Of a DNA stretch of 64,000 bases, positions 1 through 64,000 are shown one piece after another. The notes beneath the pieces were generated by a model, which was not told the origin of the DNA, searched no databases, and saw nothing but the letters and a program-made list of their open reading frames with translations. The position numbers and the translations under genes are program-made. Position 1 is the first letter of the stretch, and the number at the start of each line of letters is the position of its first letter. Source of the DNA: Tetradesmus obliquus (taxonomy: Eukaryota > Chlorophyta > Chlorophyceae > Sphaeropleales > Scenedesmaceae); contig CP126193.1 of assembly GCA_030272155.1 (NCBI GenBank), positions 6,448,001 to 6,512,000 on the forward strand. The letters are read 5' to 3'.

Positions 1-216
1 TGATGTGTCAAACATGCCTGTGCGACCCAAGGCTGCTGCGGGTTTGTCAGGGAACCCTACTGCGCCTAGTCCGTCCTGCAACATCATGCGCGACTGCTGC
101 CTCCCCAATCATTCTGCATACATACACACGCACAGTAACTTCAGCCCTAGCCAACGCAGCTCCACACCAGGTGCTGCTACTACAAAGATGTCAAAAATAA
201 CAGATTTCAAACACAC

Positions 217-3200
217 CTGGCAGAGCAAGGCCCCACGCCTCCTGATAGCGCGCACCCAGCCCACTCGCCACAGCAGCAACCAGCGACGTCAGCGGCGACA
301 TGCCACCCCTGCTGCTGCTGCTGCCGCCCTGCTGCTGCAGTGCTGCCACCAGGCTAGGGCTGAGGCAGGACTCCAGCAGCGACTGCAGCGCACCGCTGGT
401 GTTGTAACGCACGCCGTCCTGCTCTGCTGCGAGCTGTTTGAGCGGACAGGGAAGAATGCAGAACAGAGGCAGTAGAAGCAGCAGCACCAACGCCAGTCAA
501 GGGGATACCCAGTAAACAAAGCAGCGCGCAAGTGCTTGCCGAGTGAGACATATGCATCTTCATTTCAGAGCAACAGCCCCAGCCCCTCAGCATAGAAGCT
601 TGTGCAGCAGGCGCCCGCAGGGCTGCAGCTGGGCAGTCATGCCTATTTCAATTTTGATTCCCGCCCAAAATGATGCAACCAACCTTGTAGGCATTGCATA
701 AGAGAACCGGAAAATAATCTGAGAGGTGAAGAACAGTGTAACCAGGTGCAACAATGACATGTGCTGTGTGCAGACTCACCAAGGGCACCAGCAGGTGCAC
801 CACTTTTGGCAGCAGCTTGCCCGCTGCTTCAGACGCCAGCTCAGACAAGCGCCCTAGGCCAGACTCAAGCAGGCGGGCCATCGCTGACAGCTGGTCGCCA
901 CCAGCAGCGCCAGACGCACCACCCAGGCCACTGCCGGCACCTGCAGCAGCAGATAACATCACACTTTCAACAATGATCTATGACGAATGCCGCATCGCTT
1001 TTGCTGCACAAGTTGCACTAGAGCCTATTCCGCAGCAGCAGCAGCTGTAGCTTGAACATGCAAAGTCCCAACACCGCCCTGCACCTGCAAGCAGTGACGA
1101 GGCCTCGCCGTCTATCAGCAGCGCCAGCAGCTGCTGCAGCTGCTGCGGGCCCATGTGGCTGCTGCCGCTGCCGGCCAGTGCGCCCAGCACCTCGCTGGTG
1201 TGCCTGCTCAGCAGCGGCTGGCGCAGGCCGTACAGCTTCACCAGCTGCTCTGACAGGCTGGGGAGCGATGCGGCTGCATGGCAGAACGGAGGTGCAGCAG
1301 CAGCAGAAAAAGGGTTACTTGCAGGGCCAAAGGGTTGCAGCTTCGGCAGCGGCTGGCGCAGGCCGTACAGCTTCACCAGCTGCTCTGACAGGCTGGGCAG
1401 CGATGCGGCTGCAATGGCAGAAAGAGGTGCGGCAGCAGCAGCAGCAGTAGCAGCACCAGATAAGGTTAATTGCAGGGCAAAAGGCGTGCAGCTTCAGCAG
1501 CGGCTGGCGCAGGCCGTACAGCTTCACCAGCCACTCTGACAGGCTGGGCAGCGATGCGGCTGCATGGCAGAGGTGCAGCAGCAGCAACAATGTTACTTGC
1601 AGGGCCAAACAGGTGCCGCTTCAGCAGCGGCTGGTGCAGGCTGTACAGCTTCAGCAGCTGCTCAGACAGGCTGGGTTGTGATGCGGCTGCAGCAGCAACA
1701 GCAGCAGCAGCAAAAGCAGCAAAAGGAAAGGTTACTTGCAGGGCAAAAGGGATGAAGCTTCAGCAGCGGCTGGCGCAGGCCCGTACAGCTTCACCAGCTG
1801 GTCATACAGGCTGGGCAGCGACGCAGCTGCAAGTAGATCACAAGCACAGAAACAGCAGCAGCAACATGGAAGGGTTAGCTGCACGGCAAAGGAGGTGCAG
1901 CCCCATCGGTCGCGCGAACAGGCTGGGTAGCACAGCAGTAGAGATGCGGGAGTAGCAGCAGCAGCATATGTATCAGATGAAAAGAGCAAGCAGGAAATGT
2001 GCCGTCTTATGCGTGTAGATGGCGTGGTGACAGTAAGGCAGCTGCAGTTGCAGCGGCAAAGGGTGACACAAAGCGACTTCATAACATATCTCGCAGCTGG
2101 AGCGACATGCACCATTGTTCACACACATAGCAACTGCATGCCTGTGACTCTTCTCACCTGCCATGAGTGGGGCGCAGGTCTTCAGCGCAGCAAGCAGGTG
2201 CAGCACGTCGCTCACTGCTGCTGCAATGGCTGCCTCCGCTGCTGCCCGCTGCTTGTTGCTTGCTGCTGCTGCTGCGCGCGCTGCTGCTGATGGCCCGGGA
2301 AGCACCGCCTTACACACTGCAGGGCAAAAACAACACGTGCAGCAATGCTTGAGGAGCAGGCGAATGCGCAGCATGGGAGGCGCTGCCTTCAGCTCCCTGC
2401 ACTTGAGGTACTGTCATTCTAGCCTGGCAAAGGAAATCAAGTTCAAAGACGGACGCTCTGACGGCTCACAGCTGTTGCAGTGCCAACATGGCACGCCCAT
2501 CACTGCCGCTGGCAGCTGCTGCAGCTGCGCATACCATGGTTCAAGCCACAGGTGCGGTCTATACCGTGCAGTATAGCAGCAGTGAATCTTGTGTCTGCCT
2601 CAGATCCTGCTGCTGCTGCTGCTGCCTGGGTGTTGTTGCTACTGGTACTGCCTGTGCTCCCTGCCCTCACCTGCCACAATCGCCTCACTAGCTGCTGCCA
2701 GGCTGGCTGGGCTGCCCTGCAGTGCTGCCAGCACCTCACTGACGCTGCTCTGCGCCCGCTTGCGCACCTGCGCAGCAGCCACAGGAAGCATGCACACACT
2801 GCATTGTTGGAGGATGTGTTGCCTTTGTGAACCTTGCAGCAGGGATAAGTCTGAGCTGTGTAGCATAGTCTTGGCGGCTGCAGGTGACGTACAAGGGAGT
2901 TTGCGTACAACACTGCTGCGGCAAACAGTTGAATTTGATGCTGCACATGCTGAACTGACATGCATGTGCTGGGCAGCTTGCATTAGTCGGCTGTCGCGCA
3001 TTACTCCATGCGCTGAGCAGCTGATGCTGTGTATGCCGTTGCACACACAGTGGACCACTTGCTATCACGTGCCGTTTCAACCCCATGTGAGAAAGCCTGC
3101 TGCTGCGCCAGCTGTCCGTTTGCCGCACCTTGGGCCGTGCATCTGTGAGGAATGACAGCAGCAGCTGGAAGCCTGGTGCTGCTGCAGGCCATGCGCCCGG

Positions 3201-5930: not shown

Positions 5931-5983
<53 letters not shown>

Positions 5984-6362
5984 CTGCAGGCGAGCACATT
6001 GGTGACGGCACGCCCCCCATGGTGGACATTGCAGTGGACCCCCTGGATGGCACCACGCTCACAGCACAGGGCCGCAGCGGCGCCATCGCAGTGAGTACTC
6101 CGCATATTTGGTTATTTCTGTCTGATGGATTGTTTACAGCTGGTTCGCTGGTCTACTTTGCATTGGTGTCGGCCCCTTGGATGGCATCACACTCGCAGCA
6201 CAGAGCCACAGCGGCGCCATCGCAGTGAGTGCTGCAAACATACAGCACACTGGCTTTTCATGAATACTACGTGCATACAAAGCAGGCAGCTGAAGCACTG
6301 CACAGCAGCATGCGAACCGGCTGAGTATACCTTGTTACTATCGCCAAACCCTGCTGCTGCTG

Positions 6363-6411
<49 letters not shown>

Positions 6412-6765
6412 TCATCGCCCTGGCTGAGCGTGGCTGCACTTATGACGCTGGGCCCTGGTTCTACATGGTCAAGCTGTTGCCTGTTGCTGCTGTCGCCAAA
6501 CCTCCTGCTGATGTTGCTGCTGCTGCTGCTGTTGCTGCTGCCAGGTCATTGCCCTGGCTGAGCGCGGCTGCATGTACGACCCGGGGCCCTGCTTCTACAT
6601 GGAGAAGCTGGCATCACCTAACACTAACCCGTGCTGCTGCTGCTGCTGCTGCTGCCGCCGCCACTCCTGCCAGGTCATTGTCCTGGCTGAGCGTGGCTGC
6701 ATGTACGACCCCGGGCCCTGCTTCTACATGGAGAAGCTGGCACCTTGCCCCTGCTCTCTGAACCC

Positions 6766-6796
<31 letters not shown>

Positions 6797-9193
6797 CGCC
6801 GCCACTGCTGCCAGGTCATTGCTCTCGCTGAGCGTGGCTGCATGTACGACCCCGGGCCCTGCTTCTACATGGAGAAGCTGGCATCACCCGACACCGACCC
6901 GTGCTGCTGCTGCTGCTGCTGCGCTGCTGCCATGTCATTGCTCTGGCTGAGCGCGGCTGCATGTACGACCCCGGGCCTTGCTTCTACATGGAGAAGCTGG
7001 CAACTTGCCCCTGCTTTCATCACCCCGCCTGCTGCTGCTGCCCCTGCTGCTGCCGCCGCTGCCAGGTCATTGCTTTGGCTGAGCGCGGCTGCATGTACGA
7101 CCCCGGGCCCTGCTTCTATATGGAGAAGCTGGCAGTGGGACCTGGCGTGGACCCACGGCGTGTGAGCCTTGATTACAGCGTAGCGCACAATCTGGAGGCA
7201 GTGGCCAACTGCCTGGGCAAGCCAGTCAGGTGAGGCGGGCTGAGGTTTTGGATTGCTGTTTGGGCCCTGCTTCTACATGGAGAAGCTGGCAGTGGGCCCG
7301 GGCGTGGACCCGCGGCGTGTCAGCCTGGATTACAGTGTAGCACGCAACCTGGAGGCGGTGGCCAGCTGCCTCGGGAAGCCAGTCAGGTGAGATTCAGGAT
7401 ATGTCATCCAATGTGCTTCATGTGTGGTTGCCACGGTAGTGCTGCTGAGATGCTGCCTGCTTGTGTTGCCACACAGCTGCAGCGGCGCGTCCATGCTCAG
7501 TGATGCCTTCTTGCTCAACCTTTTTTAATGGCCGCGGCGTCTGTGTCGCTTGCGTTGTCGCCCTTTGCAGTGACGTCACCGTGTTGGTGCTGGATTGGCC
7601 ACGCCATGCAGAGCTCACCTCAAACACCCTTTGTGATTTGTGCTGGCATATTGCTCTGTTGTGCAATGCAGTGACGTCACCGTGCTGGTGCTGGACCGGC
7701 CGCGGCACGCAAAGCTCATCGCAGACATCCGCGCAGCAGGCGCACGCATCCGCATGATCAGCGACGGCGATGTTGGGGGCGCCATTGAAACAGCAAAGCC
7801 TGAGGCCCCAGTGGATGTTATGATGGGCATTGGAGGCACTCCAGAGGTGTGGTGTGTCCGAGTCACATGATGTCAACACACTTGGTCACAGGCTGGCAGC
7901 ATGTTGTGGTTCAAAGTGTTCTTGATTCACTCTTGTGTGCACGCATGAACTCTGGAACACGTCAGTTGTTTGGCCCTGTTCAGCATGGTCCGAAGTCTGG
8001 ACAAGTTGCTTGCTTGCTTGTTGCACTGCGTCAACTGCCGTCACTGCAGGGCGTGATAGCTGCTGCCGCGCTAGAGTGCATAGGCAAATCAGCCCAATGC
8101 AACACGGCCTGACCATCTGTCTGCACCACACGACTGCTGTTGCTGCTGCTGCTGCACCTGGCAGGGCGTGATTGCTGCTGCAGCGCTCGAGTGCACGTCA
8201 AGCCCCTGTAACCTCACATACGACCTGCTTGCTTGTAATGCTGCCCCTGCAGGGTGTGATTGCTGCCGCCGCGCTCAAGTGCATGGGCGGCTCCATCCAG
8301 GGCCGGCTGTGGGCCAAGAATGAGCAGGAGGCAGAGGCCATCCGCGCCAGCGGGCGGGACCTGACAAAGATCCTGTACACAGACGACCTGGTGAAAGGCA
8401 ACGACGTGAGTTGAGGTGTTGTTGGGCCGTGGGGCTGCGTTGATTGTAGGTAATGTTTCCATAGGCACTTTTGCATTGCACATAACCCCTGCTGCTGTCC
8501 ATGCTTGCCCAAGTAAACTGTGAACTCCGCTCATAGATGTGTACTTGCTTCTACAGCTCACACCTGCCTTCTGCTGCTGCTGCTGCTGCTGCTACTGCTC
8601 CATCTGCAGTGCTTCTTTGCCGCCACGGGTGTGTCTGACGGCGACCTAGTGCGCGGGGTGCGCTTCTACAGCGGCGGCGCCTCAACCAACAGCGTGGTCA
8701 TGCGCGGCAAGTCGCAGACAGGTGCGCGGGCCAGGCTGGCAGGGCTGTGTTGTTTTGATGGCGGATGGCGCAGACGACTAGCGGTTGAGCAACTGAACAC
8801 ATTCGAGGCGCAGCAAGACGACTAGCAGCATTCAAACCGCTTGCTGCTTTCAAGCGACTGACATTGCGTCTGTAACCACATTTGCTGAACCCATTGCTGT
8901 GCTTTGACATTGTGCCACATATGTTGCCTGCAGTGCGCTACAGCAAACACCGGCACAGCAGCCGCACGCATGACAGCTTATATGCCGTCCTCTACTCACT
9001 CCTTGGCTGTGCTTCTCCTGTGGGTTGTCCTTTCCCTGCAGTGCGCTACATCGAGACGTTCCACAAGTGGGCCGGCACCGCCGCCAACCCCTCCTCGCCC
9101 TGGCACAACCAGCAGATGGGCATGATGGGCAGCCCAGGCATGATGAGCAACAGCCCGGGACCCTCAAGCGCCGTGTTCATGATGGACGACTGA
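4505..9193 (+). CDS. glpX: Class II (GlpX-type) fructose-1,6-bisphosphatase, probably plastid-targeted and possibly bifunctional FBP/SBPase
   Basis: This enzyme removes the 1-phosphate from fructose-1,6-bisphosphate; the cyanobacterial form also acts on sedoheptulose-1,7-bisphosphate in the Calvin cycle. Ten exons join in perfect phase to 422 aa: 4505-4685, 4966-5059, 5359-5437, 5643-5700, 5990-6090, 7066-7229, 7672-7846, 8253-8405, 8610-8721 and 9042-9193. Exon 1 (about 60 aa, rich in Ser, Arg, Ala and Pro, few acidic residues) looks like a transit peptide. Core motifs in order are [43 protein letters not shown], the Li-sensitive phosphatase motif [28 protein letters not shown] and RFYSGGAST. 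The C-terminus has a Met/Gly-rich tail ending FMMDD. Exons 5, 6, 7, 8 and 10 all have echo copies. Whether the enzyme also cleaves SBP cannot be read from sequence. Confidence 0.9.
5930..5981 (+). repeat. CTG triplet run (about 17 units) before FBPase exon 5
   Basis: Pure CTG run at the 3' end of intron 4, followed by ccactgcag acceptor. Unstable-repeat length for many genomes. Confidence 0.9.
6167..6226 (+). repeat. Echo copy of the 3' half of FBPase exon 5
   Basis: A copy of the exon 5 end ([18 protein letters not shown] region plus the gtgagt donor) sits about 135 bp downstream of the original. It keeps the donor but has several substitutions and an altered start, so it cannot encode the active-site motif intact. 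Confidence 0.8.
6362..6408 (+). repeat. CTG triplet run before the first echo of FBPase exon 6
   Basis: About 15 units, directly followed by the ccag acceptor of the most 5' exon 6 copy. Confidence 0.9.
6411..7003 (+). repeat. Five tandem copies of the 5' half of FBPase exon 6
   Basis: Copies start at 6411, 6545, 6674, 6815 and 6934, and the real exon starts at 7066, giving a 119-141 bp period. Each carries a CTG-rich tract, usually a CCAG acceptor, and the first ~66-70 nt of the exon (peptide [19 protein letters not shown]). None has the second half or a donor. The copy at 6934 has lost its AG (catg in place of ccag). The most 5' copy is the most diverged ([15 protein letters not shown]), consistent with it being the oldest. 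Confidence 0.9.
7258..7387 (+). repeat. Downstream copy of the 3' part of FBPase exon 6
   Basis: This repeats [19 protein letters not shown] through the exon end, with its gtgag donor, 158 bp after the original donor. It differs by few bases and encodes nearly the same peptide ([10 protein letters not shown] becomes [10 protein letters not shown]). It has no convincing acceptor, so it is probably intronic. Confidence 0.85.
7571..7620 (+). repeat. Echo copy of the 5' end of FBPase exon 7
   Basis: The stretch gcag/tgacgtcaccgtg and following bases repeat the start of the true exon at 7672, 101 bp upstream of it. The copy keeps a possible acceptor, then diverges after about 45 nt. Confidence 0.75.
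8044..8205 (+). repeat. Two echo copies of the 5' end of FBPase exon 8
   Basis: Copies begin near 8051 and 8167, ahead of the real exon at 8253. Both have a gcag acceptor followed by codons for [10 protein letters not shown], where the true exon has [10 protein letters not shown]. Similarity ends after about 35-45 nt. Confidence 0.8.
8928..8965 (+). repeat. Echo copy of the FBPase exon 10 acceptor and first codons
   Basis: The sequence cctgcag/tgcgctaca at 8928 repeats the true acceptor at 9035-9041 and the first bases of exon 10. It diverges almost at once after that. Confidence 0.6.
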
Positions 9194-9287
9194 TAGAAGA
9201 GCATGAGTACAATGAGAATGGGCGTGCAGGGACTTTGGCCTATGCTAATAGCAGGGCTGGAGCTGCACTGGCGTGTGTTGGCGCCCG

Positions 9288-9441
9288 TGCACTGGACCCT
9301 CAAGCGCCGTCTTCATGATGGAAGATTGGGTTGGGCTGTGCCACTGCCAAGCGGCATAGGCAGATGGGCATGATGGGCAGCCCCGGCATGATGAGCAACA
9401 GCCCGGGGCCTTCCGGTGCTGTCTTCATGATGCACAATTAG
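9288..9441 (+). repeat. Two copies of the FBPase terminal coding segment after the stop codon
   Basis: The segment encoding [10 protein letters not shown] is repeated at about 9296-9325, and a longer copy ([18 protein letters not shown] region with its own stop) lies at 9361-9441. Both are downstream of the TGA at 9191. They lie in the presumed 3' UTR. Confidence 0.75.
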
Positions 9442-13409: not shown

Positions 13410-15481
13410 ATGGAGCAAGATCAGCAAGCTGAGCAGGATCAGCAAGTCCAGCAGGTGAGCAGCAGCAGGCAGCTGCTCCTAGCAGCAGTTGCTGTTGCTC
13501 CAGCGAGCCAGGGAAAGCTAGATGCACCCTTTGAAGCGTGCATGTACTGCGTGGTATTGCTGAGGTGTAGGCTGTGCCTGATTGCTTGTGTTGCATGCAC
13601 GACTCCACTGGACCTGACTACACCTGCTGCTGCTGCCGCTCTTCTCTGCAGGACAAGGCCCTGGCAGCACTGCTGATAGCATGTCAGCAGCCAGCATTCA
13701 TCAGTCACCCCAGCGTTCTTTGTGCAGCAGCAGCCACATGCAGCACTTTTGAGGCAGGCTGTGCAGCAGTGCAGCAGTGCAGCTTTGTGCGGTGGCTGCC
13801 AAACCACACCGCCCTAGTCAAGAGCCTTCACATGGCTGCACACGGGCCTGAGCCGCTGCGTAATGATGGCCTGCAGTGCAGCAGTAATATGGAGGCGTTA
13901 CTGCTGCTGCTGCAGCAGGCTGTGCAGCTGACAGCTATGTGGCCGATGGCAGCAGCAAGAGTAGCACCAGCATCACATGCATTCACAGCTGCAGCAGCAG
14001 CAACAGCACCGACAGCAGCAACTGCTGCTGTAGTGCAGCAGCAGCAGGGCATGCGCCTGGTCAGCTTCAGCAGCAACTGGTGGGGCACACCAGAGCTGCT
14101 GGGCGCACTGCCAGCACACAGCCTGACGCAGCTGCACCTCGACCTGTGGCAGCCGTTCAGGACGCGGCCCTACACCCGCAGGTATAAACTGGATGCTGAC
14201 ATGGCATCGGCAGCGCTTGCTCGACTAAGCAGCCTGCAGCAGCTGACCCTGGCTAACACAGATAGGTTTTGCAGCAATGCAGCGTGCTGTCTAACAGCTC
14301 TGGCGGAGCTGACTCAGCTGACGCTGCTGGATCTGGCTGCGAGTGGAGCATATGGTTATGGTTCAGCCTGGGCTTCGGAGAATGAGCTGCCCCAGCTGTC
14401 CGAGCTGCTTTTTGACCTGCCACAGCTGCGCATGCTGCGCCTGCCTGTCATCGGCCGAAATTGGCCACCCCTGGACTTCTCCCACATGACGCAGCTGCAG
14501 GAGCTGTCAAATGGCAGCAGCAAGCAGTCTAATGGTTTCAGCAGCGATGTGCGGCTGCCTGCTCAACTGCAGCAGCTGCATTTTGGACGAATGCACAGTG
14601 TAGAACAGCTTGAGACAGTGGGGCAGCTGCAGCAGCTGCAGGGGGTGGTGTTTGAGTGTGAGCTACGTGAGCTGCATGCAACGGACGGCCCGTCGCCAGG
14701 GCTGCTGCAGCCATTGGCCCAGATGCCAACCCTGCAGCACCTGTCAATCAAGTTCAATAGCATGTGGCGGGCAGCAAGGGCAACACCCATGTGGGCGCAG
14801 CTGCCGCAGCTGTGCGAGCTCAGCCTGAGCGGCCTCCAGCAGTCTGTGAGTAGGGAGCAGTGGGAGGCAGTCCGGGCTGGCTTGGCAGCAGCGACCAGCC
14901 TCACCAAGCTGCAGCTGGCTGTGTGTGTACAGCAGGACGCATCAAATGACATCACTGTTGATGCCTGGGAGCCAATGCCTGGGGAGGTTTTGCAGGTGTG
15001 CAGCGCGTTGGCAGGCTTGACGAGGCTGCAAGACCTGCGCATCCGTGCGCGCTTGCAGCCTGGTGATGCGTTGGCGCTGAGTGCGCTGACTGGCCTCACG
15101 CGGCTGGTGCTGGCAAGCGCACATGATGGCGTGGGTGACGAGGCAGCAGCAGCAGTGGCAAGCAGCTGCCGCCGGCTGCGGCACCTGGACCTCAGCTGGT
15201 GCTGCCTGGACAGCGGTGCATGCGTTGCTGAGATAGGCACACTGACGCAGCTGACGCAGCTGCAGCTGTGGGGCAAGAGTGGCATCACACGGCAGGGCCT
15301 GATGCAGCTGACAGGGCTGAAGCAGCTGCACCAGATGGGTGTGTACAATGAGACAGCTGATGTAGAAGAGTTGTGGGAAGCATTGACTTGTAGAATTGTA
15401 TGGGATGGATGCGGTGTAGAAGCGTATGGGGGGGGGGGGGTGCAATTGCTGCGCGTGGATGGATGCGATGGAACAGGATAG
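13410..15481 (+). CDS. Leucine-rich-repeat protein (F-box-like N-terminus possible), intact member of local family
   Basis: Two exons, 13410-13454 (MEQDQQAEQDQQVQQ) and 13652-15481, give about 624 aa. The intron begins gtgagcagcagcag and ends in a CTG-rich run plus ctctgcag. Exon 2 opens with a helical segment (DKALAALLIACQQPAFISHP) that could be a divergent F-box-like or adaptor region, followed by a Q/A/T-rich spacer and then about 15 plant- or RNI-like LRRs such as LTRLVLA, CRRLRHLDLSWCCLDSG and LTQLTQLQLWG. No kinase, TM or signal peptide is seen, so it is probably an intracellular binding protein. The last 15 or so residues follow a run of 13 G and may be frame-shifted (see findings). 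The ligand or partner is unknown. Confidence 0.8.
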
Positions 15482-15672
15482 CTACTGGCTGGTTGCTGTG
15501 GCAGCAGTGGACGCCAGCAGTGAATGGCTGCTGGCCTTTGAGCACACTAGTGGTGGCAATTGCTGGCTGTTTGACCAGGCTGGTAGTGGATCGCTGATTG
15601 TATAAGCAAGGTAGTTGTCAGAGGCAACATGTCAGTGCTGTGCTGCCAGCTGCCACAGTGGCTTTGCCATCA

Positions 15673-18176: not shown

Positions 18177-18861
18177 GGGCTTGTCAGCAGCGACCAGCCT
18201 CACCAAGCTGGACCTGGCCGTGTGTGTACAGGGCACAGCACGTGACATCACGGTAGATGCAATACAGCAGGTACCTGGTGAGGCTGTAGAGGCGTGCAGT
18301 GCATTGGCAAGCTTGACGAGGCTGCGAGACTTGCAAATCCGTGCGCGCCTGCAGCCTGGTGGCTGGCTGCAGGCGCTGAGCGCGATCACTGGCCTCACGC
18401 GCCTGGTGCTGGCGAGCACAGGTGATGGCCACAGCTTGGCCGATGATGCAGCAGCAGCGCTGGCGCGTAGCTGCCGCCAGCTGCGGCACCTAGACCTGAA
18501 TGAGTGCAACCTAGGCAGCGGCGCATGGCTGGATGAGGTTCGCCGGCTGACGCAGCTGACGCAGCTGCAGCTGCAGGGCAATGCAGGGGTCACGCGGCAG
18601 GGCCTGATGCAGCTGACAGGGCTGAGGCAGCTGCAGCAGCTGGGGGTGGACACGTGGGGCTGCCAGGGTGGTGTGACAAGAGCGGATGTGCGAGAGTTTT
18701 GGAGAGCATTGACTGGCAGCACGTCTGGAGAGTGGGGATGTGGTGCAGTGAAGGAAATGGAGGACGGCAGTGGACGCGGCGGAATGGATGCAGCAGGTAG
18801 CAACTGGCTGCTTGCTGTGGCAGCAGTGGGCGCTAGTAGTGAGTGGCTACCGGTCGTTTGA
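18177..18861 (+). pseudogene. 5'-truncated LRR gene copy (C-terminal third)
   Basis: Homology to the intact LRR gene starts abruptly at 18177 (AATSLTKLDLAVCVQ) and continues through LTRLRDLQIRARLQPG, CRQLRHLDLNECNLGSG and LTQLTQLQLQG to the end. The frame stays open for about 225 codons and ends at TGA 18859-18861. The upstream 44 nt in frame are unrelated and no LRR N-terminus is found within 1 kb. A promoterless truncated duplicate is most likely; a short expressed LRR protein is possible. The open frame suggests recent origin or residual selection. Confidence 0.65.
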
Positions 18862-23348: not shown

Positions 23349-23393
<45 letters not shown>

Positions 23394-28955: not shown

Positions 28956-28990
<35 letters not shown>

Positions 28991-29412: not shown

Positions 29413-29443
<31 letters not shown>

Positions 29444-49786: not shown

Positions 49787-49897
49787 GCAGACTCACGCTG
49801 CTGCAATGTATTCGCAGGCTCACCGCTGCTGCAATGTATCTGCAGACTCACCGCTGCTGCGATGTATCTGCAGACTCACCGCTGCTGCGATGTCTCT
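49787..49897 (-). repeat. 28-bp tandem repeat (4 copies) over the carrier C-terminus
   Basis: Units start at 49787, 49814, 49842 and 49870. On the minus strand each contains a ctgcag acceptor-like site, a 17-nt piece (acatcgcagcagcg) and a gtgagt donor-like site. The most upstream (highest-coordinate) unit contains the in-frame TGA used to end the carrier CDS here. Confidence 0.85.
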
Positions 49898-52177
49898 GCT
49901 GTAACCAGCGCTGGCGGCGCCGGTGCTGTCAGAGCAACAGCACAGTCAGCCTCAGCTACTGCTGCTGCTGATGTTGCTGCTGCCTCCCGCCGCTTTGTGC
50001 CTTGGCTTCTCAGCAGGTCATAGCCCACCAGCAGCACGCCTCCACCCAGCCTGCGGCAGTGCAGCATATTAAGTGCAACTTTGTAAACTTCATTCAAGTG
50101 TAGCAGATGTGTGTGAAACCTGGGAATCAGAGATACAGGTGGTGCAGCAGCTGGTTCCATGAGTGTGTGCGTGCTGTCATGGGCAATGCTCCTCAGGCTC
50201 AGGCACTGATAAGAAGGAATTTATACCTAAATGCACGCTGCATGAGCAAGCTGCAGCAGCCCCACCTGAACACCATGTCATAGGAGTAGAACCGGTAGAA
50301 CCCTTTCAGGCCCTCCCTTGCATAGATTCTCTGCACAGCCGCCTTGAACCTGCCATTGTACTGCCTGCTGCTTGGATCGCTGCCCACATCCACCACCAGC
50401 CGCTTGCGGATGATGTCTAAGGGGTATGTTATTGACGCTGCCATGAAGGTGGTGGAGGCTGCCAGCGCAGTGCGGCCTAGCAGGGCGGTGGGGGTGACTT
50501 CAAGGCGGCGGCCGTCCTGCACAGGCAAGCACAAAATGACGAGGTTGTAACAAATTTAAATTGGCCTTTGACAATGGTACGTTGCTTGAGGCTGCCATGA
50601 AGTTGGTTGAGGCTGCCATGAATTCGGTTGAGGCTGCGAGCGCAGTGCGCGCCCGCAGGGCGCTGAGCGTTGTTCTGGCCGTGATGCCGGCCACACATGC
50701 ACACACAACAGCCATACGACGGCCTTACAACAGCCACACAACAAGCTCCAGACGCACCTCGTGCAGCAGCAGGTTTTTGGCGGTATCGTACAGCCCAAAG
50801 TAGAGTGCTTTGTAAGCAGCCATGCTGGCCACAGCCACGCCAAAGCCCTGGTAGCAGGACAGGGGGCCGCCCGCCCGCATGGCTTGCACCCACGCCGACA
50901 GCATGCCTGGCGGCGCAATGGCAGAATGTACAAGAGCACATCCATATCAGAACTGGCAGAACATATTGCGTGTGTGATTGCCTGCAGCAGAAGTGCATAA
51001 CTATGCGCTTCACCTGGACCCAGCAGTTGCCGGCGGCATGCAGCACTGATGCTGTCATGCAGGCAACTGCTGTGTATCAGCGTGTTCGGCGCGCTGCTAA
51101 CATCAATTGCACAGCTTCCTAGCAGCACAAAAGCGGCGTCAGCGCTTCAGCCGCTGCTGCTCTGGCAGCATTCTCACCGTTGCCAAACTGCCGGTCTGCG
51201 CCGCCACTGCCCAGGTCTGCTGCCAGGCGTATCGTGGCAAACTCAAACGGGTACACTAATGCCAGCGACAGTGCGCCGGCGGCTGCGCCTGCTGCTGCGT
51301 TTGCTGCGAGTGCACTAAAGGGGCTTGCTGCTGCATCATAGCGCGGCATGGCTTCCCGGAATGCATCCTGTGTGGGATGCATCAGAAGTTTGGAGAACAC
51401 ACACAATGGCAAAATGCAGTGTGACAGGCGTTGGTGAGTGGAGAGATAAGTGGAAGGGAAAGAGCAGAAGAGGCGGCACGGCACTGGACAAGCTGCATGT
51501 GAATGTACAGCCGCAGACTGAAAAGACAGCATGTGTCCTGGTGCTGCTGCTGCTGCTGCTGCTGCTGACGCTGGTACATCTGGGTTGCCGTTGCTGGGAG
51601 CTTCATGCACAACCTAACCATTCAAATAAGAATTCACGCACCTTGAATGCGAATGACATGGATATGGACGGCACATGGCGCAGCAGGTAGGGCGTGTTGC
51701 CGCGCCAGAGCCCCAGCACGCCTTGCTCCTTTGCTAGCCGCCCAAAGCTGTGCACAAAGCTGTAGCGGGGCACCTTGCCTGCAAGCCAGGGACACAGAAG
51801 CAGCAGCAGCAGCAGCAGCGGTCAGTTGCTGCGGATGTGAGATCTTATTAGTCTTGTACACAGCTGGGTGTTGCATGCAGTATCTGCAGGATTGCAGCAG
51901 GACTGGTGATGCTGGTGCATGCTGCTGCCGCTGCTGATCTGGCACAGGGACAACCAAAACCTCAACATCACGTTGCTGACGACATAGATTAGGTCATAAT
52001 GTAGCTGGTTCGTGCTGCTTTGCTTCCCTGCCGCTGCTGCTGCTGCTCACTCCGTACCTGACAGGATGCGTGGGTTGGCGTCCTGTGTCTGCAGGAGGAT
52101 CTTCACTCTGTGCACTGGGTAGGTCAGCGAGGTGTAGATGCCACTGGTGACCATGCCAGCCACAAGATCTGTCAACA

Positions 52178-54872: not shown

Positions 54873-57452
54873 TTTCCGCCTTGTGTCCCGCAGCTACGCA
54901 GATGCAGTACTGGAGGCTGTGCAGCAGCTGGGGCTGCTGGTGTCTGGTCAGACACCCGACAAGCCAGGCATTGACTCCGATGACGGCTGGGGCATCTTTG
55001 CCTTCTTCTGCATGATCGTGACTGCGGTGTCAGGCTGGGCCTGGTTCACCCAGGACAGGGAGAAGAAGCGCTTCAAGGTGGGTTCAAGGGTTCAGGGGGA
55101 AGCTTGGGTGCTGCTTGGTTTGAGAGTAGGAGCAGCTGGCACACATGCGGTGTCCGGCTGGGCCTGATTAACCCAGGACAGGGGAAAGGCACGCTTCAAG
55201 GTGGGTGGCAGGGGGCTGCTTCATCGGAGTAGAAGCATTTGGCATATGCCTTCTTCTGCATGATCGTGGCTGCGGTGTCTGGCTGGGTCTGTTTCACCCA
55301 GGACAGAGAAAAGGTGCGCTTCAAGGTGGGTGAGGCATGAGTTATATTTGTATGAGCTGCATGCTTTCACCTAATCATTTAGTTTGCCGCATGGTGTCTG
55401 GCTGGGCCTGGTTCACCCAGGACAGGGAGCAGTTGCGCTTAAAGGTGGGTTCAAGGGGTTCAGTTGAGAGCGGGTTTAGTTGAGAGCTTGGGTGCTGCCT
55501 GGTTGGGAAGTGGAAGCACCTTGCATACATGTGTGCCTTGCGGTGTGGGTGCAGCTGCGTGCAATGCACGGGGTAAGGCGGGTGGTCTGAATAGCAGCAG
55601 TCTTGCACGCAGTTGTGCACTGTGGCCGGTGCTTGAGTGCAGCTGCGTATGTTGCAGCTGCTCTTTGAAACCCACCAATAGCTCGCTCACTCAGCATTGT
55701 GTTGACACTTGCCTTGCTGTACGTGACGTGTCATTTACAACTGCAGCGCTGCGCCAGCAAGCTCGATGCGATCAAGCGCGATCAGGCAGCAATCCGTTCC
55801 CGCCAGTACGCTGCCACCAGCTGCCCCATCTGCCTGGAAGACTTTGACCAGCCAGCACCAGCAGGCACTGCAGCAGCAGCAGCAGCAAGCGGCAGCAGCA
55901 GCGCAAACGATGCTGCTGCAGATGCCGCCGCACCCTCGGCACCGCTGCTGAGCAGTGGTGCTGGCGCCGGCAGCAGTAGCAGCGCAGCGGCAGCGGAGGC
56001 CGGCAGCAGCAGCAGCAGCAGCAGCAGCAGGCGCGTGGCCAAGTCGGCATCTGGCAAGGACCATGTTGTGAGGAAGCCGTTGGTGCTGCGCTGCGGGCAT
56101 GCCTTCTGCGACCCCTGTATCAGCGAGTGAGTACTGGGCTTTTGGCTTACGTTTTAAGTGTCCTTAATATGCGTTGTTGCGTTGCCGCATCTGGGGACCC
56201 TTTCTCCCCGCGTTGCAACCTGTCAGTGGCAGTTTGGGGTTGAGGGCAGTGCTCCCTTGGTGCAGTCTGTGGGTATTTGGCCACTTGCAAGTGTTGGCAT
56301 CCATGGAAAAGCATTACTGACCAGCCTGCTGTTGCTGTTTTGTTGTTCTTTTCCACCCCTGCAGGTGGCTGAAGAGCCACACCAACTGCCCCATCTGCCG
56401 TAAGGACCTAGAGGACCAGGAGCAGCAGACACCAGCAGACGCGCCGCCGGCGTCATGCGGCGCTGCAGGCAACGGCCTAAGGGCACAGCAGGACGTCATC
56501 CAGCAGCAGGTGCGTGGCTTGAATGTTGTCTGCTTGTTTGTTTGTACTGCATTGTGTGTTTGGTGCAGCAGGTGCGTGGCTTGGCTGACATGTACTGTGC
56601 CGTTGGTGTGTTGCGGGCTCGCAAATCATCATAGCTTGGGCCATGACTCATGGCAGCCGCCGTTATTAGCACACCCAGCTCACTTCACTGCCAGCAGATT
56701 CCGGCTAGATCCAGGACCAGAATCAGAAGGTGCAGCAAGGTGGCGTGATGCTTGCTTTCAAGCGTCCTTGACAGGCTGCAAGAGATCTGCTCAGATGCTA
56801 CGGCCTGACCACACACCTGCTGCTGCTACTGCTGCTGCTGCCGCTGCAGGTGTGGCTGCCTGAGCTGGGTTTCAGGCTGCGCCGGCTGCACACGCTGTAC
56901 CCGGAATACGTCACCAGGTGGGTGCACAGCGTGTCGAGTGCTGCGTTGATAGACGAGGGACGTACCTGCGTCTGCAGTGCTGCAAACCTTGTGTGTCTCC
57001 GGCTTCACAGGAAGAGATGCTGGCCACTTGCTTGTTAGAAGTCACTACATCGTCTACCAAGCCTTTGCTGTGCATGCTGCGCTCTGTTACATGTATCTGA
57101 TGCTTCCTTTCCCGCCTGCTGCTGCTGCCGCTGTTTGTTGCTCTTGCAGCCCCATGGTGTATGCTTGGGAGAAGACATTGCTGCACGCCGCAACCTGGAC
57201 ATGGGCGTGGTCAATCTCACATGTTCGCTGCTGCTGCTGCTGCTGCTGTTACGCAGCCCCATGGTGTATGCTTGGGAGGAGGACATCGCATCAGGCCGCA
57301 ATCTGGACATGGGCATCGTGCAGCGCTTTGAGGCGCGCAACCCGGCGCGGCAGCAGCAGCTGGAGGTGGCTGGGCGGAGCGGCGCCAGCAGCTCGGCTTA
57401 CTTTGGCGGCGGCAGCAGCCGTGGTGGCGGCGGCGCAGGCAGTAGCTGGTGA
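53008..57452 (+). CDS. TPM/MOLO1-domain, transmembrane, RING-finger fusion protein
   Basis: Eight exons close in phase to 508 aa: 53008-53304, 53917-54075, 54443-54540, 54894-55077, 55747-56126, 56365-56509, 56850-56917 and 57257-57452. An N-terminal signal peptide (AWMLLTFLVLVSSALA) leads into a TPM-like domain: ICDPENILGRESANMVDGLI, then DAWGVGNPECQNGLLLLMAI, then VYISSGRGVKSVVSDAQLST. One TM helix follows (GIFAFFCMIVTAVSGWAWF). After it comes a RING-HC finger, CPICLEDF ... CGHAFCDPC ... CPICR, all eight ligands present, with about 90 low-complexity residues in loop 1. The tail has PMVYAWEEDIASGRNLDMG and a Gly/Ser-rich end. Inferred topology: TPM domain in the lumen or outside, RING in the cytosol, acting as a membrane E3 ligase. 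The partner is unknown. Confidence 0.82.
55127..55447 (+). repeat. Three tandem echo copies of TPM-RING exon 4 3' end
   Basis: Copies end at about 55200, 55326 and 55447; the real exon ends at 55077 (period about 120-126 bp). Each repeats the TM segment (VSGWAWFTQDRE region), the exon end (cttcaag or cttaaag) and the gtgggt donor. One carries a stop in place of Trp (GWA then tga), another changes several residues. Only the first joins in phase to the acceptor upstream. Confidence 0.9.
57148..57230 (+). repeat. Echo copy of TPM-RING exon 8 5' end
   Basis: Starts after ttgcag with SPMVYAWE, as in the true exon at 57257, then has small indels that shift the frame (VYAWEKTLL). It is followed by a CTG run and the true acceptor ttacgcag. 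Confidence 0.85.
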
Positions 57453-58628
57453 TGTGTGGTGTGTGTTGGCACACAGCACAGGGCATGCTGCATATGTTGG
57501 CGCTGTTGTTGTAACTTGACTGGTGGTGTGAAGACAATTTTGGTGATGCTGGGATCGTGTCCGGGTGCAACAGCTGCCAGAGACACTGACTGGTGGTGTG
57601 AAGACGATGAACATGGTGATGCTGTGATGGAGTCCGTGCTGCAACAGCTGCCAGACCTGGAGCACACCAACAGGCACTGCAGACAGTTCATTGCAGCGTT
57701 GTTGACTGGTTCACAGCATGCGGCAGCCGACACAAACAGATGCGGCTGGGACAGCAGTGGGGTTTCTGCAGCAGCTGCTTGGCTGCGTTTGACAGTAGTT
57801 GTGATGGAGTGGCACGTGGTGTGCAAATGGATGGCATGCAGTGGTTTGTGGGACAGTGTAGGTGACGTTGATGGCATAAGCATTGGCGTGTTTAAAATGG
57901 CGGGAGTGCTAGTGACTTTGACCCTACCGTAACAAAAATGCATGCATAGTCTTAGCACCAGGCGTTGTCTGGTATTTTGAGACTTCTGGGTGGCACAGTG
58001 CTCTGAAAGAATTTGTAACAACAGTATGACAGTCTGATCAGTTGATTTGCATGCAAGTGCGCACGCAGCATGCTGTGGTGCACACCCAGGGTCTCCAGGC
58101 TTCTGGAGGTGATGCCCACTCAGTGACTGGCAGCCACGTTCGAGTTCAAGTTCCGCTGCTCTTTTGCTCTCGTTGCGTTTATGTTCCCTCTTAGCAGTAT
58201 CTGCATGTAACGATTCTGGTGTACACTATTCACCACGTGTATCATTCACATCTTTAGAGATTTGCTTGCACTGAGTGATGGTCAAGTTGCCTTCTAGTGA
58301 CTGTGCTACCATCAGCAGGCACCGCTGATCAGCTGGTCAGCCGAAGGTCCAAGGTTGTGTGTTCATGCAGTTACGATTATGGTAAGCTTGGTGTGCATGC
58401 AAACATCCTTGACAGTTGTTTCTGAAGGTCCGAGCCTGGCCCTGCGACGGCCTGCCGATTCCGAGACCAAAGCGTCGGCGCCAGGTTCCAATGCCCGGGC
58501 ATTGGGCGGGCCCGCCCAAACGCCCGAGCCATATAGCCACTGGAGTTCAACCAGTAGCAGTGGCATTGCACAGTCTTGCGCTTCATTATACCTTGCTTAG
58601 GCACTGATCACTGCTGATCACAAACACG
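57453..58628. other. Intergenic, no gene recognised
   Basis: A short direct repeat (gactggtggtgtgaagac) occurs at about 57519 and 57588. The last ~200 bp resemble 61750-61930 and so are the copied promoter of the secreted-protein pair. Confidence 0.45.
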
Positions 58629-59254
58629 ATGTCCTGCAAAGCTGCTCTGCTGTGCCTGTTGGCACTTCTGGCCATTGCAGCGAGCCAAACGAACGCCGAG
58701 AGCATTGAAACTACCTCTATCACAGCTTCAGGTGGGCAGCTGGAGCAATTCGCCGTTTGTTCCGAGATCCAGAGCAGCAATTGCAAGCTTCCGCAGCGGT
58801 TACCGTCCTGCTTCAAATCACCTCCCTGACTCCCTCGACACGCAACAATTCCGCTGGCACTGAATCTGAAGATGTTGTGCGCGTTTGCAGGCGTCCCACG
58901 CCGCCTGCTGGGATACTCCAAGACTGTCACCGTCGAGTGGGTAAGCGGCACCCACTGCTGCCCGTTAGCAGACAGCGTGCAGGCTGTCAAGCATGTCTGG
59001 GATGTTAACGTAGAAAATGCACACATGCCATGCAGCAGGCCTGGTGTAAAAGCGCACTGTTGCCAAGCGTTGCGCCTGCCACATGAAGCATCATGATCCA
59101 ATGTTTGGTTTGCCCTCTGATTAGCGCGCACATCAATATCAGCAGCTTCAGAAGCATCAGTTAAATCACTGCAGACAGATCACAAGCACGCTGAAGCCCC
59201 AATACCTGCACAGCAACACACCTCTCATGCCTTTGCCGCCGCCGCCGCCACTGC

Positions 59255-59328
<74 letters not shown>

Positions 59329-59523
59329 CACGCTCAGAGCCACGGCTCCAAGGCGGCGCCAGCGCCCGCCCCAGCCCCAGCACCTGCCCCCGCTAAGAAG
59401 GAGGAGAAGGCAGAGGTGGTCTATGTTGAGGTGCCGCACTACTGCAAGTTTTGGGCCAAGTGGGGCCACATCCACCCCCACTGCGCACACTACTACTACA
59501 AGTCAGCTGGCCGCAGGCTGTGA
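58629..59523 (+). CDS. Small secreted protein with Pro/Ala/Lys hinge and conserved Cys/His C-terminus (copy 1)
   Basis: Three exons (58629-58731, 58891-58940, 59338-59523) give 112 aa. A clear signal peptide (CKAALLCLLALLAIAASQTN) is followed by VPRRLLGYSKTVTVEW, then a hinge of Ala-Pro repeats and Lys/Glu, then a compact end VEVPHYCKFWAKWGHIHPHC and a final AGRRL. The acceptor (cacacgctcag) after a 24-unit CTG run was chosen because the paralogue has no Leu run and because phase closes. No known family was recognised. Two Cys and several His and aromatic residues suggest a small metal-binding or disulfide module. Probable extracellular or wall protein. Confidence 0.72.
59252..59326 (+). repeat. 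Longest CTG triplet run (about 24-25 units, one TTG interruption)
   Basis: It lies at the 3' end of intron 2 of the secreted-protein gene, ending 11 bp before the acceptor. Read as coding it would give poly-Leu, but the paralogue argues for intron. Confidence 0.9.
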
Positions 59524-59928
59524 ATCTAGTGCGGCTGGCAGGTGTTGCTGTTGGCATGACAGTTTGCTGCGTGTGTGTAGCACTACTGTCGACCTCATCC
59601 ACTTGTTGCAGAGTGTGGTGTAGTCTCCGAGGTTCGGTACATACACCACCAATACATGGGTCACTTTAGGGCGGCTGGGCGCAGGCTGTGAGCTGCATGT
59701 CTGTGAGTGTCAAGTCAAATTGCACCAAGATTCACATGCATGGCTGGTGTTACTGAATGCAAACGTACAGCTGCTGCACGGGCTACACATTTGACAGTTG
59801 GCAAGTGCAGCAGGTGAATGGGCAGGCGTGGTCCGGTGCTGTAATACAATGCTGCACTAGGTGGCTGCCAGATACATAGCGTGTGCGATTTTGCTGACAG
59901 AGTGTATTGCATCTTGCGTGTTTTCTAG

Positions 59929-60248
59929 TTGTGCGCCACATCTCACACACACAGTCTATCACAACTGGTTGTGCGCCACATGTCACACACACAGTCTATC
60001 ACAACTGGTTGTGCGCCACATGTCACACACACAGTCTATTACAACTGGTTGTGCGCCACATGTCACACACACAGTCTATCACAACTGGTTGTGCGCCACA
60101 TGTCACACACACAGTCTATCACAACTGGTTGTGCGCCACATGTCACACACACAGTCTATCACAACTGGTTGTGCGCCACATGTCACACACACAGTCTATT
60201 ACAACTGGTTGTGCGCCACATGTCACACACACAGTCTATCACAACTGG
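59929..60248 (+). repeat. 40-bp satellite, exactly 8 tandem copies
   Basis: The unit begins ttgtgcgccaca and ends tcacaactgg. Copies differ at only a few positions (catctc in copy 1; tatt in copies 3 and 7). Because 40 is not a multiple of 3 and the unit has no stops, all plus frames stay open, giving artefactual ORFs. Confidence 0.97.
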
Positions 60249-61934
60249 GCAGCAGCAGTTGGACTTGCATGCACCTGGCAGTGCGTTTGTACACTTTGCT
60301 TTCGCAGCACTGCCAGCACAATCGGCAAGTTTCATGGTGTATGCCACTGGCAGGCGTGCCCTTGCACAAGGCTGTGCTAGTACAGTGCACAAGGCTGTTC
60401 TACTAGCGGGGGCGGTATAGTCATTGCAACTGTACGCAGGTGGTTGTTTTGGAGGTAGGACAGGTATGGCTCATGCCGTGTTGCAGCATCTCGCATTCTG
60501 CATCATAAAAGGGGGCGTCCATCACACCATGTAGTGCATCACGCACTCAAGAGCGCGATGATCATCTGTCGGTGCTGAAGCTGATCTTGTGGTATGCTGA
60601 CGCGTTATGGGCTGCATGCTGGGCTGGCAAAACCTGTGTGCCATGCCACAGTCTCATGCACCACTGCTGCAGCTGGTGCAGTACTGCACTAGTACCAGTG
60701 TGAGATGCCACTGACTGTGCAGGGAATGCTGCAAGCTACATGCCACTTGCACCATTGTAGGAGGCAGATCACTCAGTGCCCTTGGCATCTCCGCTTTTTC
60801 CATGCATACTGTTGCCATGGCCAAGATTGGGTTGGAGGCAGCTGCTGCAGCACACAGTACGTTGACTCCTGTACATCCTATTCATTGCTGCACGCTCCAT
60901 GGCATTGCATCCAGTCAATGGCCTGAGGCGGCCCTTTGTACAAGCGGTTGACGCTCAAATTTGGCTTACACGTGTATGCAAACGAGACGAGCAGCAGTAC
61001 ACAAGTTGCAGTTGGCGGCGGTCACACGCTACAAATGATGACAAATGCAAGTCACAGCAATCCCACACAAACCCTGAGTTCAACAGCAGTGTTGTGTCAA
61101 TGGCGCATTACATGCGCTACGATAAGCAGGGTGATTCACCTGCTGCTTGGCTGCTTTGTCTCTGATGGGATGCATGTAGTTGCGCTGCAGCAACTATCAT
61201 GCCAGTTGGTTGGTAGTTGTTGGTGTGACGGTGTTGGCTTGTGCTCCTCAAAGTTGTGTAGGTACAGTTGGTCCTTTGTTCATTGCATGCGCACATGGCA
61301 AGTTTTGATGTGCTGTGGTGTGCATCCAGCGATTTTAGGCCTGCAGTTCCACATATGAAAATCTTAGACGATTCTACCAGTGGCTGGTAGCAGCCTGGGC
61401 GTAACCAGTTACTGCTGTGTCTTGACTTACACTCAGTGCAGCAGGCTGCTGCAGTGGTGATGTGTTGAACGGCCACGGGCAGAAGCAAGGTATATAGATC
61501 GTTACTGCAACGTAATATACACGGATCTCAGTGCAAGCGAATGATAATTGAGTGTGTGGTGCATACTAGTGACTGTGCTGCATCTGTGCAGCAGCGGGAA
61601 CGACGTTGTGTCGACAGTTTCGACAGAGTCCAAGGTTATACGTTTAAATTGCAACGAACTGCATGATGGCTAATCAAAGCCGACTGGCTGGCGGATTTTC
61701 AAGACTAATAAGTGACTGTGGGCATGCCACACGAACAGCAAAGGTCACAAGGCTCCTACTCAATGCCACTGCCATGCCGAGACCCAAGCGTCGGTGCCAG
61801 GTTCATTTCAGCGCCTACAGCTCGAGCCATATGAGCTGCAGACCACCAAGTCGAATGCAATCGGTCGGTAGCAGTCACCGATACAACCTTTTGATTCATC
61901 CTATCCTGCTCAGGCACTGATGAGCACAAAGACG
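60249..61934. other. Intergenic spacer between the tandem secreted-protein genes
   Basis: Contains sequence shared with 63300-63880 (for example gtatggctcatgcc, gttgcagcatc, aataaaaggg), i.e. the 3' half of the segmental duplication. No gene recognised. Confidence 0.45.
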
Positions 61935-62853
61935 ATGTCCTGCAAGGCTGCTCTGCTGTGCCTGCTGGCACTTCTGGCCATCGCTGCCAGCCAGACCAAT
62001 GCCGAAAGCATTGAAATGACCTCTGTCACACCTTCCGGTAGGTGGATAGAGCAACTCGGCTGTAGCTGGCGATGGATGGAGCAGTAGCCTTCCACAGCGG
62101 TTACAGTCCAGCTCGAGGCCGAATGAGAAAGCACATGCACCTTACATGCTGTTACATTTGAATTTAGCCTATTAGTGTTCTTTATGCATTCCCAGGCGTC
62201 CCACGTCGCCTGCTAGGCTACGCCAAGACTGTCACCAAGACTGTCATATTTGAATTGGTGAGCAGCAGTGCTAAGCAGAGGCTGCCGCAGCTCTGTTGCC
62301 CCGTTGACACATTGGTAATGCAGCAGCCAGCAGGTTGTCAACTCTACTTGCAAGATTACCTTGTGAAACCATATGCTCGCTGGCCATGCAGCATCCCTGC
62401 AGTGAGTGTACGCACATGTGCAGCTGCTGCCAAAGTTTGCACCTGCCATTCCTGAAAGGCAGAGAATGAAGCATCACGATCATCTGTTCGAACAATCTTC
62501 AGTTCAGTGCATGTCGATTGCAATCAACACAACAGCCTTACATATACGTGTCAAACCTCCAGATCAGCCCTATAACACACCTCACAAGCCAACCCCGGGG
62601 CCCCGCTGCTGAGGCTGCTGCTGCTGCTGTCATCACATTTGCTCAGGTGACCAAGGCTGCGCCAGCCCCCGCTAAGAAAGAGGAGGAGAAGCCCAAACCT
62701 GTACCTGCACCTGCCCCTGCACCAGCCAAGAAGAAGACAGAAATTGTCATTGTGGAGGTGCCTCACTACTGCAAGATGTGGGCCAAGTTTGGCCACATCC
62801 ACCCTGACTGCGCGCCCTACTTTGCCAAGGCAGCAGCCGGCCGCAGGCTGTGA
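61935..62853 (+). CDS. Small secreted protein with Pro/Ala/Lys hinge and conserved Cys/His C-terminus (copy 2)
   Basis: Three exons (61935-62037, 62196-62257, 62647-62853) give 123 aa. The signal peptide is nearly identical to copy 1 and exon 1 has the same length (103 nt). Then come VPRRLLGYAKTVTKTVIFEL (with a 12-nt internal duplication relative to copy 1), a longer Pro/Ala/Lys/Glu hinge, and VEVPHYCKMWAKFGHIHPDC ending AGRRL. The hinge differs much more than either end, so the two ends are under constraint. Intron positions and phases match copy 1. Function unknown. Confidence 0.75.
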
Positions 62854-64000
62854 GCTGCATGTCTGCAAGCACCAGTTCAGGTTTCAAATGCGCACGGTTT
62901 ATGTGTATATGTGTCATCGTCACAATGTGCACCTGCAGGTGCTGTACGTTCGGAAAAGTTTGATACCTGACGTGTGCATCTGGTAACTGGGCAAGCGTGG
63001 TTTGGTGTTGTATCGTGCTGCTGCACTTGGTGGCGTCCTAGACAACATCGCTGTACGTTTCTTGACAGAGAGATTGCATCTGTGTGGTGTGTGCTCCGCT
63101 CTTCTCTCACAACATGGCAGCAGCAGCTCCAACTGCATTGGTTGCAGTTGCAGTGCGTTATTTGTGCAGTGTTGACATGTGGCAAATTGGGCTTGTTTGA
63201 TGACCTCTGTGTTTGATGCTTCCTGTCAGGAGGGAGCCTTGCTTAAGGCTGGTCCAGCAGGAGGCTGTCTTGTACATTGCAGCTGTGTGCTGTTGTTTCT
63301 GTCTCAAAAATGCAACATGTATGGCTCATGCCATGTTGCAGCATCCACATGCTGAAGAATAAAAGGGTACACTTGTTGCACAACACGGCTTTGATTTATG
63401 TGCTGAAACTGATCTTGTCGATTAACAGCAACGTTTCTTGGCTGGATTTTTGGCTGGCAAAGCTTGTGTGCCACGCTGCCCAACTTGATGCACCACTGCT
63501 GCTACTGCAATGTATGTTACCTGCAATTCTTGATACAGCTGCAGCTAATGCGGCGTGTGATGCGATGGCTTGCGTGGGCAGAGTGGCAGTCTGCATGCCA
63601 CCTGGATTACTGTACATGGTTAACCGATGATGGCATCATGACGATACCACAGGGACCTCCTGTGCCTGCATGCAAAATAGTTCCCATTGCCGTCATACAT
63701 TGTGGCCAGGGAACAGTAGGTTGACCTGTATCTACTGTGCATAAGCTCCACGGCATTACAAGCCCAATGCATGGGGCCCTATGGCATGAGGTGGCAATCT
63801 TTGAAAGTAGTTGATGATCATTCTGGCTCACTTGCGCGTGAGACCAGCAGCAGTAGACAAGTTGCGGCAGGAGGCAGGCATGCCTGCTGTGTGCACAGCA
63901 TAGGCATGCTTGGATTCACTGTCTTATACATTCTGCTGATGCCAGCGAGTGCGGTTCTTGCTGAGATTTGCCAGCAGCTGGACATCCATTAGTCATGTTG
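62854..64000. other. 3' flank of the second secreted-protein gene, part of the segmental duplication
   Basis: Shares blocks in the same order with 59700-61050. No gene recognised to the right edge. Confidence 0.4.

Follow-up and report, generated by a model that had tools for sequence, protein, structure and literature searches.

A window of 64,000 nucleotides from the green alga Tetradesmus obliquus (positions 6448001-6512000 of contig CP126193.1; G+C content 56%) contains numerous echoes, defined here as copies of an exon edge and its splice site that sit in the adjoining intron. These echoes are probably the remains of ordinary tandem duplications that by chance crossed the border between an exon and an intron, with the outer copy decaying neutrally as intron. 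The copies are directly oriented and regularly spaced, differ from their exons in a neutral codon pattern, leave the inner copy in use in the three genes checked and, at acceptors, obey a lower limit on the amount of duplicated intron. The phenomenon is genome-wide; the window is typical, random stretches of the genome having an equal density.

Frequency and Geometry of the Echoes

The event set comprised 26 stretches with a total length of 314 kb, namely the window and 25 random stretches of the 104.66-Mb genome (17 contigs). Repeats were detected with Tandem Repeats Finder (TRF), self-BLAST and an edge-anchored search or alignment. Genes were predicted with a small hidden Markov gene finder trained on 264 kb, whose imperfect models assigned 62% of bases to introns, 29% to exons and 9% (8.9%) to intergenic sequence. 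Introns of the window are rich in CTG runs, and their acceptors carry a strong GCAG consensus. The CTG runs gave rise to false minus-strand exons in unmasked prediction, and masking of CTG repeats helped. In a published table T. obliquus is listed with 57% G+C and a mean intron length of 462 bp, the longest among the five algae compared (PMC5966456).

The initial annotation of the window, made from the letters alone, described exon-edge echoes as a process acting across unrelated genes. All three detection approaches recovered them. Merging by eye of the TRF and self-BLAST results, with short-period repeats mostly omitted, gave local direct repeats at 15 places of the window. With one fixed filter, the 64 kb of the window gave 12 clusters of tandem duplications and 20 random stretches of 10 kb each (200 kb in all) gave 38, and both the cluster density and the event counts show that the process is not peculiar to the window. 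Before reclassification of one RING-CH event (36069-36235) from intron-only to exon edge, a change that none of the counts given here takes into account, the set contained 54 events: 40 at exon edges, 8 intron-only, 6 complex and none intergenic. Random stretches alone contributed 32 edge, 7 intron-only and 3 complex events, which were present in 16 of the 25. The five stretches outside the training set yielded 6, 3 and 1 such events, respectively, an edge share below the overall one. Duplications equally common away from exon edges, the counter-case named in the annotation, are thus not what was found, although intergenic sequence makes up only 8.9% of the sample according to the gene models. 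The reclassified event, the sole intron-only one checked by hand, proved on translation to be an exon edge missed by the gene finder. Among the seven others, the coding score exceeded the 95th percentile of introns solely at L018 3494 (0.04 vs. 0.03).

In most repeat pairs, one copy is located at an exon edge and the other within the adjoining intron. Probing with 60-mers for same-strand copies within 1 kb (score of at least 25) detected them at 36 of 271 exon starts (13.3%) and 29 of 269 exon ends (10.8%), compared with 2 of 123 exon middles (1.6%) and 2 of 205 intergenic pieces (1.0%); the value for intron middles, 120 of 1414 (8.5%), includes the echoes themselves. The reverse-strand control gave one match for exon starts and none for exon ends, and pairs within 1 kb comprised 84 direct and 7 inverted ones. 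Close direct copies and copied splice signals, two marks of tandem duplication across an exon-intron boundary, are both present; a third mark, homology running on through both parts of the unit, is clear in some copies, 43 of 103 intron parts being detectably related.

According to the initial annotation, echoes of exon starts lie upstream with acceptors and those of exon ends downstream with donors. This geometry holds in 119 of 139 clean echoes (66 acceptor-upstream and 53 donor-downstream), the remaining 20 (6 and 14) having the contrary direction. Of the echoes that could be placed, 51 of 57 at acceptors retained the AG and 35 of 47 at donors the GT; 15 of the 119 could not be placed. Intron-side echoes occur at 63 of 774 examined exon edges. 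The nearest one is 85-175 bp away at 44 of these 63 edges (median 129.5 bp, quartiles 120.5-142), nearer at 3 and farther at 16, including 8 at 234-253 bp. Intron-only pairs (n = 16) are similarly spaced, 9 of them at 99-166 bp; however, several of them pair one echo of an edge event with another, and two derive from a repeat with a 51-bp step. A step of 51 bp follows from the shifts of 102 and 153 seen at L011 168-373, where a predicted intron carries a repeat of 100% identity.

Echoes do decay, as the annotation stated, but a greater distance from the exon does not always go with greater decay. At edge 3550 of L023 identity is 83, 92, and 94% at 76, 231, and 391 bp, the outer copies being more alike, and at edge 6367 of L027 it runs 81, 82, 84, 95, and 91% across 131 to 645 bp.

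The Copy in Use and the Fate of the Echo

The clearest series of echoes is found in the gene for FBPase, the model of which was set by hand (Table 1). A search for an FBPase of the PF00316 type gave no match on the contig of the window; the gene encodes the GlpX-type, class II enzyme (PF03320), and its model agrees with protein record P0001 at 100% over all 347 queried residues, the N-terminal part lying outside the query. The echoes previously noted at exons 5, 6 (both ends), 7 and 8 were recovered, while that of exon 10 is weak. The gene finder called a false exon at 7286-7386, as judged by the protein-record match.

In FBPase, the antiporter and TPM-RING genes, records P0001, P0121, and P0241, respectively, each correspond to the copy that is continuous with the remainder of the exon, and none contains the echo, in agreement with the earlier statement that the innermost copy is the functional one. 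The contigs of P0001 and P0121 have at most 2908 and 2085 bases and are shorter than the intron-bearing genes; therefore, they represent spliced sequences. P0241 is an annotated protein, i.e., a gene model; it matches TPM-RING with 95-100% identity in six of eight exon matches, and the other two alignments extend into intron.

Mismatches between exon and echo at codon positions 1, 2, and 3 amount to 0.097, 0.091, and 0.187 (57 pairs, non-independent since several share an exon). This pattern fits a freely drifting echo and an exon changing mainly at silent sites, that is, neutral decay rather than maintained exons. Spacings show no preference for multiples of three (14 of 44). Mutually exclusive or cassette exons would appear as complete exon copies under coding constraint, and the copies are mostly partial, with the exception of some whole short exons in L025 and L027. 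Dense arrays at L027 6686-7703 and L025 9122-9600 repeat short predicted exons together with both of their splice sites; many of the copies are more than 90% alike, and these arrays could be true exon duplications.

The role in alternative splicing or in the origin of new protein repeats suggested in the initial annotation thus finds no backing in the codon pattern, the spacings or the echo-free protein records, and no evidence of function was found in codon positions, spacing frame and the protein records of three genes. Judging from these sequence features, the echoes look like harmless leftovers that lengthen introns and not like working parts, although rare use in RNA is possible.

Probable Origin by Edge-Spanning Tandem Duplication

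A tandem duplication, typically of 100-160 bp (about 125 bp), would by chance include an exon-intron edge. Of the two copies, the one still attached to the remaining exon would go on splicing, while the outer copy would turn into intron, adding one unit length, and then decay neutrally, hidden by splicing. The geometry, which the initial annotation could not attribute to any feature family, needs no further cause, because in such a duplication the exon-joined copy is necessarily innermost, and because an edge duplication survives only if that copy still splices. At the DNA level, slippage or repair of staggered breaks may be responsible. In rice, Vaughn and Bennetzen reportedly described in 2014 a patch-mediated break repair giving tandem duplications; the echoes resemble its products in being short direct tandem duplications, which repair may have made.

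Duplications spanning an acceptor would survive only if the inner copy retained enough intron (at least about 42-45 nt), presumably to accommodate the branch point and polypyrimidine tract. After removal of 4 of 44 rows with inflated extension or low complexity (two of these, both at acceptors, had shown 32 and 44 nt of intron), the used copy retains at least 42 nt of duplicated intron (unit minus exon part) in all 24 acceptor rows. A uniform breakpoint is rejected for the lengths of their exon parts (P 3e-6), while a breakpoint keeping at least 45 nt is not rejected (P 0.15). A preferred register, considered as the cause of the excess of short exon parts, was abandoned in favor of this viability limit. 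In some copies homology covers the whole unit, as at window position 23752 (exon 96%, intron 127 bases at 94%) and L027 7389, and intron-only duplications of similar size exist. The C-terminal coding end of FBPase was copied twice downstream with no known splice site; therefore, duplication does not depend on splice sites.

Decay Rates and Alternative Explanations

Several observations weigh against so simple an origin. Intron-derived parts are detectably related in 43 of 103 cases, compared with 65-85 expected in equal-rate simulations, and a match to the simulations requires introns decaying 2-2.5 times faster than exon-derived parts. The difference persists between two echoes of one exon, neither of them functional (85 pairs): exon parts are 86% alike, while intron parts are 80% alike ungapped (unrelated introns 72%) and 67% per length (unrelated 54%). 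At edge 4334 of L025 the exon part is 96% identical, yet only 4 intron bases are homologous. In confident introns, 31 of 33 events are at edges vs. 0.47-0.80 expected in simulation, and the P value of this excess, which depends on how fast introns are assumed to decay, lies between 1e-8 and 0.024 (4e-5 at 1.7x, 0.024 at 2.5x). As to the acceptor limit, donor rows (n = 16) fit both a free breakpoint (P 0.09) and a 45-nt limit (P 0.18), so that the contrast between acceptors and donors rests on exon parts longer than 75 bases (1 of 24 vs. 5 of 16, P 0.03).

Decay of the exon-derived parts thus seems to proceed at about half the rate of the intron-derived parts. Copying that ends exactly at splice sites, which would need an exon-specific mechanism, was also considered; with all echoes and simulations taken into account, this proposal weakened to faster intron decay. 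Over all sequence, simulations of random duplication give an expected edge share of 0.24-0.33. Much of the apparent confinement to edges would arise because duplications within exons are lost and because copies paired with a conserved exon diverge more slowly, with ascertainment presumably contributing its share. Much of the edge bias would thus have an ordinary cause; the present sample leaves room for a smaller real bias but does not prove one.

Such a bias would be expected if duplication, or later refreshing by gene conversion, were directed to exon edges through transcription- or splicing-coupled DNA damage, or if mainly the exon and a few splice-site bases were copied. The excess over simulated random duplications, the greater likeness of exon parts between echoes and the drop of ungapped identity from about 0.9 to less than 0.5 within about 9 nt beyond the splice site are in line with this explanation. 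We nevertheless regard it as unlikely, since some copies have long intron homology, intron-only duplications reach similar sizes, a coding end with no known splice site was also copied (9112-9435), and faster intron decay removes much of the excess. Moreover, splice bases in echoes (CAG 0.93, GTGAG 0.70-0.93) are conserved about like exon bases, roughly as if the used copy alone were constrained. In its broadest form, the explanation would invoke a mutational process, with a characteristic unit near 125 bp, that acts preferentially on exon-intron junctions and is perhaps coupled to transcription or splicing; introns would then grow mainly by copying their own exon edges, with the exon-derived parts refreshed or spared; this has a minor chance of being correct.

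That the echoes are working parts, such as alternative exons or decoy or recursive splice sites under selection, is very improbable. The frequent retention of AG and GT and the several echo sites scoring as high as the used site would suit such a role, but two free bases changing at a rate of about 9% would already be kept in about 82% of cases, against 89 and 74% observed. The equal divergence of codon positions 1 and 2, with twice as much at position 3, and the absence of echoes from the three protein records argue in the same direction. Intron sequence flanked by direct repeats also recalls intron gain, either by tandem duplication of exon pieces bearing AGGT or by insertion of introners or transposons with long target-site duplications. 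This origin is still less credible: echo spacing differs from intron length (134 bp in a 975-bp intron), an echo repeats the same edge and not the opposite one, and in the three genes checked it lies inside one intron while the exons match the protein records. No shared intron family (introner elements) was found among 464 predicted introns of the 314 kb, which gave 21 weak cross-locus hits. An assembly artefact can practically be discounted, given that the exon part is less than 95% identical in 36 of 44 nearest echoes, the differences are codon-structured and more than half of the random stretches carry events. Edge-spanning duplication followed by neutral decay remains the best explanation.

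Echoes in Other Genes of the Window

Most of the other cases listed in the initial annotation were likewise located (Table 1): exon-start copies in the genes it called RRP12 and protease, the RING-CH echo, whose exon was recovered by hand translation, echoes at both ends of one SBP exon and at two edges of TPM-RING. In the antiporter gene, the echoes of the exons ending at about 28953 and at 29372 were found, while that of exon 7 is weak (41 columns, score 20, no shuffle comparison); a false exon was called by the gene finder at 29439-29506, as judged by the protein-record match. A mitochondrial-carrier gene with PF00153 matches at 50292-50471, 50761-50904, and 51645-51767 is an additional case.

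Table 1. Exon-edge echoes and related features of the window (window coordinates).
Gene	Feature	Position	Strand	Evidence
RRP12 (name from the initial annotation alone)	Array of exon-start copies	1197-2000	-	TRF periods 127-151; self-BLAST
FBPase	Exon 5, used copy	5990-6090	+	tblastn of P0001 and P0002
FBPase	Downstream echo of exon 5 end with donor GTGAGT	6161-6233	+	84% over 64 exon bases
FBPase	Five upstream echoes of exon 6 start	6374-7002	+	At -132, -251, -392, -521, -655; 80-96% over 66-69 exon bases; TRF periods 119-141
FBPase	Exon 6, used innermost copy	7066-7229	+	P0001 match 100%
FBPase	Downstream echo of exon 6 end with donor	7262-7391	+	89% over 125 exon bases
FBPase	Upstream echo of exon 7 start with TGCAG acceptor	7550-7629	+	81% over 59 exon bases
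FBPase	Two upstream echoes of exon 8 start	8027-8195	+	83 and 87% over 36 and 31 exon bases
FBPase	Echo of exon 10 start, weak, 19 bp	8924-8942	+	Score 17 vs. maximum 13.5 in 300 letter shuffles of target
FBPase	Two copies of C-terminal coding end, 3' of gene (region 9112-9435)	9289-9435	+	88% over 40 and 76 bp; no known splice site
Protease (so called in the initial annotation)	Donor-side copy	23330-23463	-	
Protease	Two upstream echoes of exon 23600-23752	23807-24037	-	Unit 124; nearest: exon part 96%, intron part 94%
Antiporter	Downstream echo of exon ending at about 28953	28973-29069	+	Alignment score 59.5; P0121 matches first copy
Antiporter	Downstream echo of exon 29213-29372 with donor	29439-29520	+	Score 60; absent from P0121
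RING-CH	Echo of exon start (used copy 36069-36120)	36184-36235	-	Self-BLAST and hand translation
SBP	Downstream echo of donor end of exon 46921-47090	46753-46812	-	78% over 60 exon bases
SBP	Upstream echo of acceptor end of exon 46921-47090	47170-47243	-	96% over 49 exon bases
Mitochondrial carrier	Upstream echo of exon with acceptor 50516	50607-50708	-	75% over 85 exon bases
TPM-RING	Three downstream echoes of exon ending at 55077	55146-55463	+	85-90%; not in annotated T. obliquus protein P0241
TPM-RING	Upstream echo of exon starting at 57257	57110-57211	+	87% over 63 exon bases; P0241 matches 57255-57449

Other repeats of the window include minisatellites at 59928-60248 (40 bp x 8, 98%) and 49786-49899 (28 bp x 4, 90%), a size class below the units of about 125 bp. 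The neighboring stretches 58452-59523 and 61769-62853 are related (62% alike), seemingly as a tandem gene pair. Stretches 14879-15657 and 18178-18985, which we take to be leucine-rich-repeat-like, are 72% alike.

Relation to Known Systems and Significance

Tandem duplications inside genes are described in print (PMC4974935, PMC3443670), and are cited there as frequent; the echoes add a narrow unit and a measured frequency per exon edge (63 of 774). The closest parallel is a tandem duplication across an intron-exon boundary of the RdRp gene of potato (Ma et al., 2016; PMC4974935). There, too, the duplicate comprises the 3' portion of an intron together with the 5' portion of the exon that follows, with splice signals inherited from the parent edge. 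Unlike in potato, where a new intron was made, the outer copy in T. obliquus is absorbed into the existing intron, and this concerns acceptors and donors in many genes. Tandem exon duplications and mutually exclusive exons (PMC9013439, PMC6071210) also involve tandem exon copies with introns; the echoes differ in usually comprising a partial exon and one splice site, with no coding constraint seen. No prior description of such echoes in T. obliquus was found in the literature searched, most subscription papers being outside its reach.

Overall, the echoes represent a known kind of mutation occurring at high frequency, boundary-spanning tandem duplications filtered by splicing. Their frequency, the narrow unit size and the slow decay of exon-derived parts make them worth the attention of specialists. 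For gene prediction in this lineage, they mean that false exons can be included, as at FBPase and the antiporter. The affected edges, about 8% of those sampled, form a natural set of duplicated splice sites of differing ages in one genome. It makes testable both the lengthening of introns without transposons and the amount of intron that the spliceosome needs to pick the inner of two near-identical acceptors.

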